Below, piece after piece: positions 27,918 through 32,409 of a DNA stretch of 33,270 nt. The position numbers and the translations under genes were made by a program. Under the pieces are notes generated by a model. That model was not told where the DNA came from. It saw nothing but the letters and a program-made list of their open reading frames with translations, and searched no databases. Numbering within the stretch: position 1 is the stretch's first letter; each line of letters begins with the position of its first letter. Source of the DNA: Campylobacterales bacterium (GTDB lineage Bacteria > Campylobacterota > Campylobacteria > Campylobacterales > Sulfurimonadaceae); contig JAFGUB010000041.1 in the NCBI GenBank assembly GCA_016938735.1, forward strand, positions 1 to 33,270. Direction: 5' to 3'.

Positions 27918-28265
27918 TCAGGGTTGAAGCAGCACTGCCGCGACCGCGTATTCGCCGTCATGGGTGATGGAGAGCGCGGCTTTACTAAAGCCAAAACGCT
28001 GCTGTAGCGCCGGACTAAGCGAGAGCTGCGGCGCTCCTTTCGGGCTTTTGCTGATGATCATATCGCCAAAGCCGCACTCACCCCCGATGCCGCTGCCCAG
28101 CGCTTTGGAGCAGGCCTCTTTGGCCGCCCAAAAACCCGCCGCCGTCTTAGGTGAGCCAACAAGGGCAATCTCCGCATCGCTCAAAAACCGTCTGAGCGCG
28201 GCGTCGCCGTAGCGCCCTATAAAACGCTCCATACGGCTGATTTTGATGAGATCGATACCGATCAT
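27918..28265 (-). CDS. acpS: Holo-[acyl-carrier-protein] synthase
   Basis: The enzyme transfers phosphopantetheine from CoA to acyl carrier protein. At 115 aa it has the standard length. MIGIDLIKISR (D5) and FWAAKEACSKALG (E50) supply the Mg2+-binding acidic residues, and SITHDGEYAVAAVLL is the usual C-terminal strand. Its own ATG has no Shine-Dalgarno site. It overlaps by ATGA the end of a 10-codon ORF that has an excellent one, so its translation is probably coupled. It is GC-rich like the core genome, in contrast with the SMC operon that begins 39 bases upstream. Confidence 0.95.
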   Translation of the reverse strand: MIGIDLIKISRMERFIGRYGDAALRRFLSDAEIALVGSPKTAAGFWAAKEACSKALGSGIGGECGFGDMIISKSPKGAPQLSLSPALQQRFGFSKAALSITHDGEYAVAAVLLQP

Positions 28266-28294
28266 GAGACGATGAATCTTATATGGTGATACAC
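28262..28294 (-). CDS. Ten-codon ORF between the SMC gene and acpS
   Basis: GTG at 28294 is preceded by AAGGAG (28306-28301) at a six-base spacing. It reads ten codons (VYHHIRFIVS) to a TGA that overlaps the acpS start as ATGA. The ribosome binding site itself overlaps the stop codon of the SMC gene. It could be a coupling leader peptide. It could also be the fused ends of a deleted gene, such as a lost fourth gene of the SMC operon or the former upstream neighbour of acpS. Sequence alone does not decide. Confidence 0.4.
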   Translation of the reverse strand: MYHHIRFIVS

Positions 28295-28304
28295 AATGTA
28301 CTCC

Positions 28305-31300
28305 TTAAAGGTTGAGTTCAATCGCTTCGAACTCGTTGTCGTTGTTTTTTCTAAATTTGTAGTATTTAATGCTTTCCGGTTTTGAGTAGGTCGGTTCTGG
28401 TGTTACAAAGACGATTTTGAACCCTTTTGCATTGGCAAAAGCGCGTAAACGCTCTTGATTGGCACTATGAAGACGTGATACTTCATCGACTATCAAGAAA
28501 AACGGTGTCTTCTCTTCTTGAATAAATAGCTGCAAAATAGCAATAGCAATGGCAATTTTCAGAAGCATGCTTCCACCTGTTGAGCTCTCATTTTTAAGCT
28601 GCACTACCTGTGAAACGGGTTTGCCGTTTTCAAGAAAAGAGAGGCTTAAATCGATTGTGTCTTGAAGGGAAATAGCACTTCCTTTAAGCTCCGCTTTGAT
28701 CTCTTTGAATTTTGCTTCGAGTGTTTCTAGGGCGTGGTAGACATCCTCTTTGTCATAAAACAAAGAGCTCTCTCCAAGTAATGAACTGAGATTGCCAACC
28801 ACATCGCGCAGCTCTTCAAGCAGTTTTGCAACGCTTTTTTTATCGCCGCTTTTTGTTTCGATGCGGATCTCTTTAATCACCCCAAAATCAATTGCGGAGA
28901 GATTTTTATTGATTTTTTGCACTTGAGTCATAAATCGATCTTCACTATCGCTAAAGACCGACATTTTCTGCGGCAAAAGGTTGTCAATAAAGTTGAGAAA
29001 CTTTTTATGTCCGCTCTGTTTTAGCATTTCAAGCTTTTTGTTTTTAAATTCGACGATCTCTTCAAGTTTAAGCAGTATATGAGGACTTTGAGAGATATAG
29101 GTGTGCGCTGTGTACTCCTCAAAGCTAAAAGAGACCTCTATCTCATTTTGCATATTTTTTAAAGCATTGAGTTTATCAAGTCTGGTTTTGAGATCAACTT
29201 TTTTGTTTTTATATTCTGTACACATTTCGTCATACCCATGCAGTAAAACGACAAGATACTCTTTGGTTTTTATGGGTGTAACAAGTTCAAACACTTCCTC
29301 ATTTTTTTCAAAGCGCTCAATTCCATTTTTGAGCCGTTTTTGATCTTCAAGCAGTTTTTTTTGTGCTTGAATAAGTTCCTCTACGCGGTATGCATACTGC
29401 TCAATCTTCTCATCTAGTCGTTTGGTAAATATCGCATGATTATACGAGGCAATTTTTAAGTCATTTTGTTTTAGTGTTAAAGTTTCCAAACGCTCTTTTT
29501 CGTCTGCATATTCCGCCAAAAAGTTTTGTGCCCGTAAACTCTCTTGGTACTCGCGTTGATTGTGCACAATGGCCTCTTGAAGCTCAAAGATTCGCTCATC
29601 TTTTGAGATATTGCGTTTTTTTTCTTCGTAATGTTTGATGATTTGCGTGAGTTGCTCTTGCTCTTGTTTGTGTTGTTGCTTCAAAAGGGCTTGGCGCTTG
29701 AGCAGTTCCTCTTGAAACTCCTCTTTAAATCCTTCAATATCTTGGAGATTTTTATTTCTTTGCAGACGCAACTTTTTATGAATTTGTACTATAAGCTCAC
29801 GGTTGTTGGCTATCTCATCTTGCAAGTTTGCTATGGTTTGCGTATGCTCTTTTTCTCTCTTGGAATGGAGGTTTTTGAGTATTTTTGTCTCTTCTAGCTG
29901 CTGGGTGCGGAGTGTTTGTGTCTCTATGTCAAAGGTTTTGAGCTTCGCTTCCTGTTCGCTTATCGTGTGAATAAGCGTACTTTTTTCCTTCTCTTGCGCC
30001 TCGAATGTTGCATTAAATTGCGCTTGGAGGTTGGTTAGAGACTCTTTGTAGCTCACTTCGAGTGTCTCTTGATGGACTCCTAAGGCCTCTAATTTCTGGT
30101 TTGCTTCCTCTTTTGTGGGTATTTGTTTGAGATTTTGGGTGTTGAGTTCGATTCCGAAGATGTTGTTTCCGGTCAATAAACGCGGTTCTAGCTCTTCGAT
30201 TGATCGATCAAGCAGGCTTCCATCCATCACGGGGTAAAGTGTTTTCTCCCAGCCATCAACCTCTTCATGTAAATACTCCTTGAAGCTACCGGGTTTTGCA
30301 GCTATTATGGAGGTGTAGAGGACGCGTTGCTCCTCAAGTGTGCGAAGTTCCGTGGCAAAGTTCGCTTCCAATGCGCTGCTTTGGTGTTTTAGGGCTCTTT
30401 GTAGCTCTTGTCGCGCATACTCAAGCGCCTTCAAGTCTGCTTGATGGCGTACGATCTCATCGGACACAATGCGCTTGTTGTGTCTGATCTCTTCGAAGGC
30501 TTTTTCAAAGTTTTGGTCCAAAAGTTCACGCTCATTTTTTTGCTCTGCCAAAAGAGTCTGCAAAAGTAGTTTCTCTTTGTGGATATTCTCCTCAAGGCCT
30601 TTTATCTCTGTTTCAAGATTGGTGCTGTCGTGTAGGGCTTCTTTCTCTTTTTGCTCAAACAGTAGTTCGATAGTACGGATCTTCTCGTGCAGGGAGGCCT
30701 TGAGGTTCTGTTCTTGTGAAAATAGTTTACCTTCAAACTCTCGAACCAGTTCTTTGTCTCTTTTGTGGATGAGCGCTTCGATCTCTTTATTGATACTTTC
30801 GCGTTCATCGGTAAATCCTTGTTCGAGCTTAATCAGCGCTTCATTAAGGCGGCTTTGTCTGTTCTTGATCTGCTCAAATCGATCTGCTATATTACGGTTG
30901 GCTAAAAGTTCTTCTTGAGAAAATTTCTCTTTGAGTTTCTGGATCGTTGCTATCTCTATGGTGAGTTGATTGGCAAAATGTGTGTAGCGCTTATTCCATT
31001 TTTCTAGGATTTTTTTCTTTATTTTGTGACGTTCTCTATGTTTGTGCAATAGACTTTGGGTTTCATCATACTTTGAAGTCAAAAAGAGAAGCTCTTGGCG
31101 TTCATGCTCTATGCGAAAGCTGATTTGCCCACGAAGCTCAAAAAGTTGCTCCTCCATACTAAGAAGCTTCTCTTTTAGGACATAGGCACTTTCTATAGTC
31201 TCTTTATGCTTTTCAAACTCTTTAAAAAAACGGTATCCTGATTGAAAAGCATATATTTTTTGAAGATACTCTTCATGGTTGAAATCAATCACCTTTTTTT

Positions 31301-31478
31301 CATAATCAAGCGTCGTCTGAATCGCTTTTTTAATACTTTTTGCATCAATGATTGATTTATCGATATTGAAGATTTCATTAAAAAGATCCAGAAAAATATC
31401 ACTGTTTTTTATGGATGCAAACATAAAATCCAAATAGCGCTTGTCATGCCCATAAATAATCGATCGATACTCACTCAT
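28305..31478 (-). CDS. MukB/JetC-like SMC protein, arm and C-terminal head part
   Basis: This part (1057 aa from ATG 31478) is dominated by long Lys/Glu/Gln-rich coiled coil (about residues 90-830). It ends in an ABC-type ATPase head with a signature-like ESSTGGSMLLKIAIAIA (about 965-980) and Walker B PFFLIVDEVSRL (about 992-1003). No Walker A is present: that is in the separate ORF at 31471-31878, overlapping by eight bases in a frame one base away. Joined, they would form a protein of about 1195 aa, like MukB/MksB/JetC. In such systems the SMC dimer extrudes DNA loops with kleisin (F/JetA) and KITE (E/JetB) partners. The codon and base composition is AT-rich, unlike the genes to the left, pointing to transfer. 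An alternative is another SMC-type defence ATPase, but gene order favours Muk/Jet. Confidence 0.75.
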   Translation of the reverse strand: MSEYRSIIYGHDKRYLDFMFASIKNSDIFLDLFNEIFNIDKSIIDAKSIKKAIQTTLDYEKKVIDFNHEEYLQKIYAFQSGYRFFKEFEKHKETIESAYVLKEKLLSMEEQLFELRGQISFRIEHERQELLFLTSKYDETQSLLHKHRERHKIKKKILEKWNKRYTHFANQLTIEIATIQKLKEKFSQEELLANRNIADRFEQIKNRQSRLNEALIKLEQGFTDERESINKEIEALIHKRDKELVREFEGKLFSQEQNLKASLHEKIRTIELLFEQKEKEALHDSTNLETEIKGLEENIHKEKLLLQTLLAEQKNERELLDQNFEKAFEEIRHNKRIVSDEIVRHQADLKALEYARQELQRALKHQSSALEANFATELRTLEEQRVLYTSIIAAKPGSFKEYLHEEVDGWEKTLYPVMDGSLLDRSIEELEPRLLTGNNIFGIELNTQNLKQIPTKEEANQKLEALGVHQETLEVSYKESLTNLQAQFNATFEAQEKEKSTLIHTISEQEAKLKTFDIETQTLRTQQLEETKILKNLHSKREKEHTQTIANLQDEIANNRELIVQIHKKLRLQRNKNLQDIEGFKEEFQEELLKRQALLKQQHKQEQEQLTQIIKHYEEKKRNISKDERIFELQEAIVHNQREYQESLRAQNFLAEYADEKERLETLTLKQNDLKIASYNHAIFTKRLDEKIEQYAYRVEELIQAQKKLLEDQKRLKNGIERFEKNEEVFELVTPIKTKEYLVVLLHGYDEMCTEYKNKKVDLKTRLDKLNALKNMQNEIEVSFSFEEYTAHTYISQSPHILLKLEEIVEFKNKKLEMLKQSGHKKFLNFIDNLLPQKMSVFSDSEDRFMTQVQKINKNLSAIDFGVIKEIRIETKSGDKKSVAKLLEELRDVVGNLSSLLGESSLFYDKEDVYHALETLEAKFKEIKAELKGSAISLQDTIDLSLSFLENGKPVSQVVQLKNESSTGGSMLLKIAIAIAILQLFIQEEKTPFFLIVDEVSRLHSANQERLRAFANAKGFKIVFVTPEPTYSKPESIKYYKFRKNNDNEFEAIELNL

Positions 31479-31878
31479 GGATTTGACAGTTTTTTTTAAG
31501 TGGTGCCTCTTTGAGATAGTGCTTTATTGCTTCCAAATCATAAAGTCTTCGCTCCTCATCCATGATTCGATCTAAGCTAAAGAGCTGTTTTGAAAAAACT
31601 TTTACAATCTCAGTACCACTTTTGTACATAAAGATAAAAAACTCTTCAAATATATAGGCAATATAAGAGTCTTGGTAGCGAAAATAATACTCTTTGAACC
31701 CCTCCTTGTCATTAGGAATACCAAGATTCCGTCCGTCTCTGCTAAAAAGGTAATGAATAGCGCGAATAGCAGTCGTTTTACCGCTTCCATTTTCACCTAA
31801 AAAGAAGAGGTCTTTTTGTAGATTTAGATTCAAAAAACTAAAATTAGCAGAGTTTATAAGTACCATGCTTTTGATCAT
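31471..31878 (-). CDS. MukB/JetC-like SMC protein, N-terminal Walker A part (split gene)
   Basis: This 135-aa ORF encodes an N-terminal ABC head: a first strand (INSANFSFLNLNLQKD), Walker A GENGSGKTTAIRAI (about residues 29-42), and a following SYIAYIFEEFFIF strand region. It stops at 31471, shortly after a run of eight A residues (sense strand, 31497-31490). Removing one A would carry the frame through KKTVKSMSEYRS into the long downstream ORF. So this is the missing front of the SMC protein, separated by a one-base shift. Its ATG follows directly after the stop of the MukE-like gene, with GGTGGGA as a modest ribosome binding site. Confidence 0.75.
   Translation of the reverse strand: MIKSMVLINSANFSFLNLNLQKDLFFLGENGSGKTTAIRAIHYLFSRDGRNLGIPNDKEGFKEYYFRYQDSYIAYIFEEFFIFMYKSGTEIVKVFSKQLFSLDRIMDEERRLYDLEAIKHYLKEAPLKKNCQIHE
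31490..31497 (-). repeat. Homopolymer A8 at the SMC gene split
   Basis: Eight consecutive T on the plus strand are A8 in the sense direction, located 11 bases before the second ATG. Seven A residues would fuse the two ORFs. Such runs are known sites of slippage by polymerases, of phase variation in Campylobacterota, and of sequencing error. Confidence 0.85.
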
Positions 31879-32409
31879 TTATCCCACCACGCTTTGTACA
31901 ATTTTGGTGTAGTAATCAACGGCACTCAGAACAATGTATTCATCTTTTGAATCATTTTCTTTTTTCTCTAAAATATAGTTTTTTTCCAAAAGATCAAAAA
32001 AACGCTCTACGATATCTTTTAAGTCTTTCGTTTTAAATATATATTCAATTTTTTGCTCTAAAATAGGGTCGTCCTTTTGCTTGAAATGCACAATAAAGTC
32101 GGTTTGCTTTAAAAGAGTTCCGCGTTCAAGATAAGGAAAAAGCTGTTTTAAGATAGCGATACACAAGAGGATGTTTTTGTGATTGTTCAAAAATGCCTGC
32201 AGCTCCGCTTCGCTCATCTTCTCATTTTTTGAGAGATAAAAATATCCATTTTCCCCATTGAGTGTAAATCCTAGTTTTTTCATTATTTTGGAAAGTTCAT
32301 CAAAATTTTCTTCTATCATCAAAAACTTTGCTTCATCACTCTGTTTTTGCGAATTTATAGATATTAAAACTCCTTTGCTTAAAACCTTAAAAACTTCATC
32401 TAAGCCCAT
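31879..32409 (-). CDS. MukE/JetB-like (MksE) condensin subunit
   Basis: The 176-aa protein is helical with a probable tandem winged-helix arrangement (EELSKIMKKLGFTLNGENGYFYLS-type segment near 35-60, and LFPYLERGTLLKQTDFIVHF near 95-120). That is the shape of MukE/MksE/JetB KITE subunits, which bind the kleisin. The assignment rests on size, predicted fold and position between a helical F-like gene and the SMC gene; direct similarity is weak. It overlaps the upstream gene by ten bases, with AAGGTGG before its ATG, and abuts the SMC start. AT-rich. Confidence 0.6.
   Translation of the reverse strand: MGLDEVFKVLSKGVLISINSQKQSDEAKFLMIEENFDELSKIMKKLGFTLNGENGYFYLSKNEKMSEAELQAFLNNHKNILLCIAILKQLFPYLERGTLLKQTDFIVHFKQKDDPILEQKIEYIFKTKDLKDIVERFFDLLEKNYILEKKENDSKDEYIVLSAVDYYTKIVQSVVG

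Follow-up and report, generated by a model that had tools for sequence, protein, structure and literature searches.

The jetC/mksB gene of a divergent Wadjet-like operon is split into two open reading frames at a run of eight A's in the 33,270-nucleotide stretch of DNA analysed here (the window). The split gene encodes the SMC subunit; the operon has four genes in the order JetD-A-B-C and is Wadjet/MksBEFG-like. We consider it highly probable that the break is a one-off, non-programmed +1 indel at an A7 run, either a recent mutation or a consensus error, and not a built-in switch. By a single base, one jetC copy was probably switched off.

The sense strand over the junction reads CTT AAA AAA AAC TGT CAA ATC CAT GAG TGA, with 11 bases separating the A8 run from an ATG at which translation of the arm could restart (Table 1). 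Downstream of the break, the arm frame carries the signature STGGS and the Walker B motif FFLIVDEV. Removal of one A, or a -1 shift, unites both frames as LKKTVKSMSEYR, and this junction agrees with LKKTVKSLSEYR or LGEYR in intact homologs. A sequence-only reading of this DNA had described an SMC gene broken at A8 into ORFs of 135 and 1057 aa, which A7 would join and which held no further lesions. The sequence and its ORFs confirm the two-part gene and its joining at A7, and jetD, jetA and jetB are also intact across the contig break. In the homopolymer survey, which covered 0.74 Mb of this genome sampled by stretches, 18 A8/T8 runs fall within open frames, and the run at 31490-31497 is the sole one to join two frames; thus the jetC split is more than chance.

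Table 1. Positions of the jetC junction, its operon, the flanking genes and a second split gene.
Feature	Location	Strand	Basis
acpS, host gene flanking the insertion downstream	27918..28265	-	
jetC/mksB arm ORF, 1057 aa: remaining N-lobe, coiled coils, ABC signature, Walker B (DUF3584)	28305..31478	-	
jetC/mksB head ORF, 135 aa, Walker A GENGSGKT, AAA_23; ended by an out-of-frame TGA	31471..31878	-	ORF list, Pfam
Head/arm overlap ATGAGTGA; possible restart codon (ATG)	31471..31478	-	
A AAA AAC, possible -1 ribosomal slippery heptamer, head frame	31489..31495	-	
A8 run, site of the frame break	31490..31497	-	
AGAGG resembling a Shine-Dalgarno sequence, 10 nt before the heptamer; probably no more than Glu-Ala codons	31506..31510	-	
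jetB/mksE, 176 aa, intact	31879..32409	-	Pfam MksE, E=2.9e-16
jetA/mksF, C-terminal 289 aa, gene cut by the contig end	32400..33269	-	
jetD, 259 aa	L059 (contig C32) 220-999		DUF7281 match at its cut-off
fliL, far side of the insertion	C32:1056-1619		
Split sensor kinase gene	L089 9424-11249 = G000 contig C6, about 49424-51249		

Further information about the operon was obtained from its other genes. The window ends inside jetA (33270) and shares only TTATAT, a 6-base overlap, with contig C32 (L059), which carries the first 76 aa of jetA together with jetD. JetC matches DUF3584 and AAA profiles, and its Walker A, signature and Walker B motifs are visible in the alignment; the KITE subunit JetB/MksE is present according to its Pfam match. 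The kleisin JetA/MksF is assigned solely by its position and size, as Pfam and PADLOC gave no match. Searches against solved structures found no relative of JetB by sequence, a chance-level match only for JetD, and coiled-coil matches only for the JetC profile, and for this reason folds were compared. The predicted JetC fold of an intact relative matches MukB (MukBEF) and JetC, including that of Wadjet-II (9qe0), by Foldseek. For jetD, the predicted fold most resembles topoisomerase VI-A and the Corynebacterium glutamicum nuclease MksG (8b7f; probability 1.00 with modest E-values), and the protein bears Toprim-like VENGE and DYNIEG motifs. The guess of a defence ATPase made in the sequence-only reading is therefore supported, as the gene codes for JetC/MksB in a JetABCD-like operon.

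The operon shares with Wadjet JetABCD/MksBEFG its four genes, with a jetA in the kleisin position, an MksE-family jetB, a MukB-like SMC jetC and a Toprim-type jetD. It differs in its order D-A-B-C, in leaving the PADLOC models largely unmatched and in its frameshifted jetC. The PADLOC Jet models did not match JetA, JetB or JetD and gave a weak match to the P-loop region of JetC; consequently, we file the operon as divergent Wadjet-like and not as a typed Wadjet system. Sulfurimonas sp. GWF2_37_8 (L013) has an operon 71% identical to this one, with the same gene order. In the PC08-66 operon, jetA is directly preceded by a gene (L011 3519-3989) that does not resemble jetD and looks like one for a small PIN-domain (VapC-type) protein. 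By kinship to Wadjet/MksBEFG, the operon would act in anti-plasmid defence. We thus identify in Campylobacterota, among relatives of Sulfurimonas, a divergent and putatively anti-plasmid JetDABC operon largely missed by PADLOC models. Such operons may be under-annotated in the phylum, the 259-aa jetD being missed by these models.

The operon is a clean horizontal acquisition. It is placed between fliL and acpS (window 28265-28305; L059 999-1056), and the empty site is found in another species of the same genus, where fliL and acpS overlap directly (L107 3126-4036). Its GC content is about 34-40%, against 51% for the genome. A search for relatives in viral contigs and plasmids found none.

The nature of the frame break is best judged from the relatives. 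In the full-length ones (about thirty, from the family and the order), JetC is encoded in a single frame that stays open, without a stop, over about 1180-1210 aa, and the junction peptide is conserved as LKKTVKSLSEYR or close variants. None of the intact homologs shares the break. The run at the junction is A7 in 11 of 15 relatives, A5 in two, A6 in one and absent in one, and none of the 15 has A8. The A7 of the relatives is in frame and owes its presence simply to codons for Lys-Lys and then Thr or Arg. Since most relatives have A7 and none A8, the window represents a single-genome addition of one A to an inherited A7. A two-chain protein as the state of the family, one of the options in the sequence-only reading, is ruled out by the single-chain relatives. 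The slippage-controlled condensin also envisaged there finds no support in the comparison, given that A7 is in frame in relatives, that A8 occurs in none of them and that A8 is at the low edge for slippage. Its phase variation and sequencing error survive, but as versions of a one-off +1 indel at A7.

Against the 71%-identical operon of L013, the head has a dN/dS of 0.07 and the arm one of 0.08, with similar values for jetA and jetB; these ratios are rough, as synonymous sites are near saturation. On this comparison, both head and arm have evolved under strong purifying selection. With such low values on both halves, decay has not set in, and the lesion is either too young for visibly relaxed selection or not real. 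When placed on the model of an intact relative, the junction falls within the N-terminal ATPase lobe, in a strand (residues 128-131) flanked by helices of this globular head; the coiled coil follows about 70 residues further on. As the break lies inside this lobe, truncation is predicted to disable the ATPase.

We propose that replication slippage may recently have added one A to the inherited A7, in a lineage without MutL; alternatively, the extra A would come from a homopolymer consensus error. If the mutation is real, translation would mostly end within the N-terminal ATPase lobe, at 135 aa, leaving defence largely off in that clone, where a change of the tract could revert it. Any full-length or two-chain product would then be incidental leakage and not evolved control. 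Neither this genome nor 20 relatives gave a MutL match above the curated cut-off, while all 14 controls matched, which makes replication slippage plausible. The jetC split fits among the singleton frameshifted genes of the GeneTack survey, with which it has in common a non-conserved frame break and intact homologs, and from which no difference is apparent. In that survey, non-conserved, BLAST-validated frameshifts were ascribed to sequencing error or recent indel (PMC3711429).

That the sequencing or assembly is simply wrong, and the genome truly has A7 and an intact JetC, is the part of the one-off indel reading that we regard as possible yet would not bet on. The absence of any other lesion and the strong purifying selection speak for it, as does the AT-rich operon, in which the contig break within jetA and the 6-base overlap to C32 could mean thin coverage. 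The second A-run frameshift of this genome points the same way. There, an A7 (L089 9908) splits a Tll0287-like/PAS/histidine-kinase sensor gene, the Tll0287 profile being matched at 32-83 upstream and at 92-144 downstream of the run. With this second case within 0.74 Mb, such indels are not unique in this genome. However, of the 19 A8/T8 runs examined within ORFs, 18 keep the frame, and the coincident Leu-to-Met change at the possible restart codon (see below) is real sequence. Orthologs compared with those of genome G010 showed no true frameshift; the homopolymer frame-join scan of G010 is a rough control only. Two frameshift candidates from that comparison proved to be antisense shadow ORFs. 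With the other 18 A8/T8 runs intact and no ortholog frameshifts, homopolymers are not generally misread. We infer a real mutation somewhat more readily than an error, and infer a loss of function as well.

A phase-variable switch, in which the gene would pass between A7 (on) and A8 (off) at rates that selection can act on, appears quite unlikely. MutL was not found in the family, and reversible inactivation through a poly-A tract is known for Listeria inlA (PMC2831843), which has in common with jetC a potentially reversible poly-A frameshift towards the 5' end of the coding sequence. However, the jetC run is short and follows from ordinary, conserved Lys-Lys-Thr codons, in which it differs from inlA, and it is known here from one genome of the species. 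Moreover, the run is not lengthened in relatives, which carry 5 to 7 A's if they retain the Lys codons; the operon also has other A8 runs of equal length. A search of the literature on Wadjet phase variation or MksB frameshifts gave nothing on point.

If the A8 is real, it could instead be tolerated, with JetC made as two coupled chains or in small full-length amounts through slippage at A AAA AAC, an outcome to which we give a small chance. If true, this would be a natural split-SMC or a recoding-throttled anti-plasmid motor, and the gene would offer a natural test of an SMC ATPase head working in two pieces or dosed by recoding.

Rescue by recoding, in which some full-length JetC would arise because transcripts lose one A or ribosomes slip by -1 at A AAA AAC, is in our opinion unlikely. 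Selection has been maintained on both head and arm, which speaks for it. The Shine-Dalgarno-like AGAGG 10 nt upstream would aid the -1 slippage, and its spacing from the heptamer resembles that of the dnaX site. Nevertheless, this string lies within Glu-Ala codons, and a similar GAGG is found in L011, where the frame is intact. The heptamer belongs to a class known from bacteria, with one IS example proven, but the AAC-to-AAA shift that it demands is less readily tolerated by bacterial ribosomes (PMC4066793). Some IS elements may use eight-base A/T runs, but as a rule A/T runs are visibly selected against only from nine bases on (PMC1088944); A8 is thus marginal, at the low edge of productive bacterial slippage. 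The interrupted tssM1 of Citrobacter rodentium, which like jetC has a poly-A run just upstream of a premature stop, is the best precedent, being rescued by transcriptional slippage. However, tssM1 has A11, where A's are added with about 20% rescue, whereas jetC has A8 and would need to lose one A (PMC4256274). A downstream stimulatory hairpin was no better than shuffles (z -0.84, with 34 of 200 shuffles as good; not significant), and the frame break was not found in any relative. In terms of programmed recoding, jetC presents the slippery run, while a conserved frame break and a stimulatory structure are absent.

The other form of tolerance, two coupled chains with a stop at TGA, a restart at the overlapping ATG and reassembly of head and arm polypeptides, we judge very unlikely. 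Its strongest point is the restart codon itself. The ATG is present in this genome only, relatives having Leu or Val codons there, and of 67 columns with conserved Leu just one has Met in this genome, its codon being the ATG in question, roughly a 1-in-67 coincidence in a comparison chosen post hoc, after seeing the data. This lone change fits adaptation to the split. The ATGAGTGA overlap is also suggestive of coupling, as the jetD/jetA and jetA/jetB gene pairs overlap too. On the other hand, the intact relatives are all single chains, the cut is inside the N-lobe and not at a domain boundary, and no Shine-Dalgarno sequence is near the ATG.

Beside the one-off indel that we favour, jetC is independently disrupted in other relatives. 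In genome G474 (L159), jetC is interrupted by an IS21-type, istB-like fragment; in G303 (L157, L158) it is divided over two contigs; and G239 (L160) has many frameshifts across jetD, jetA and jetC. As jetC is broken by other means in these three genomes, its inactivation is an ordinary outcome. In Clostridium, a mutant with improved plasmid uptake had spontaneously lost jetABCD (PMC12287153).
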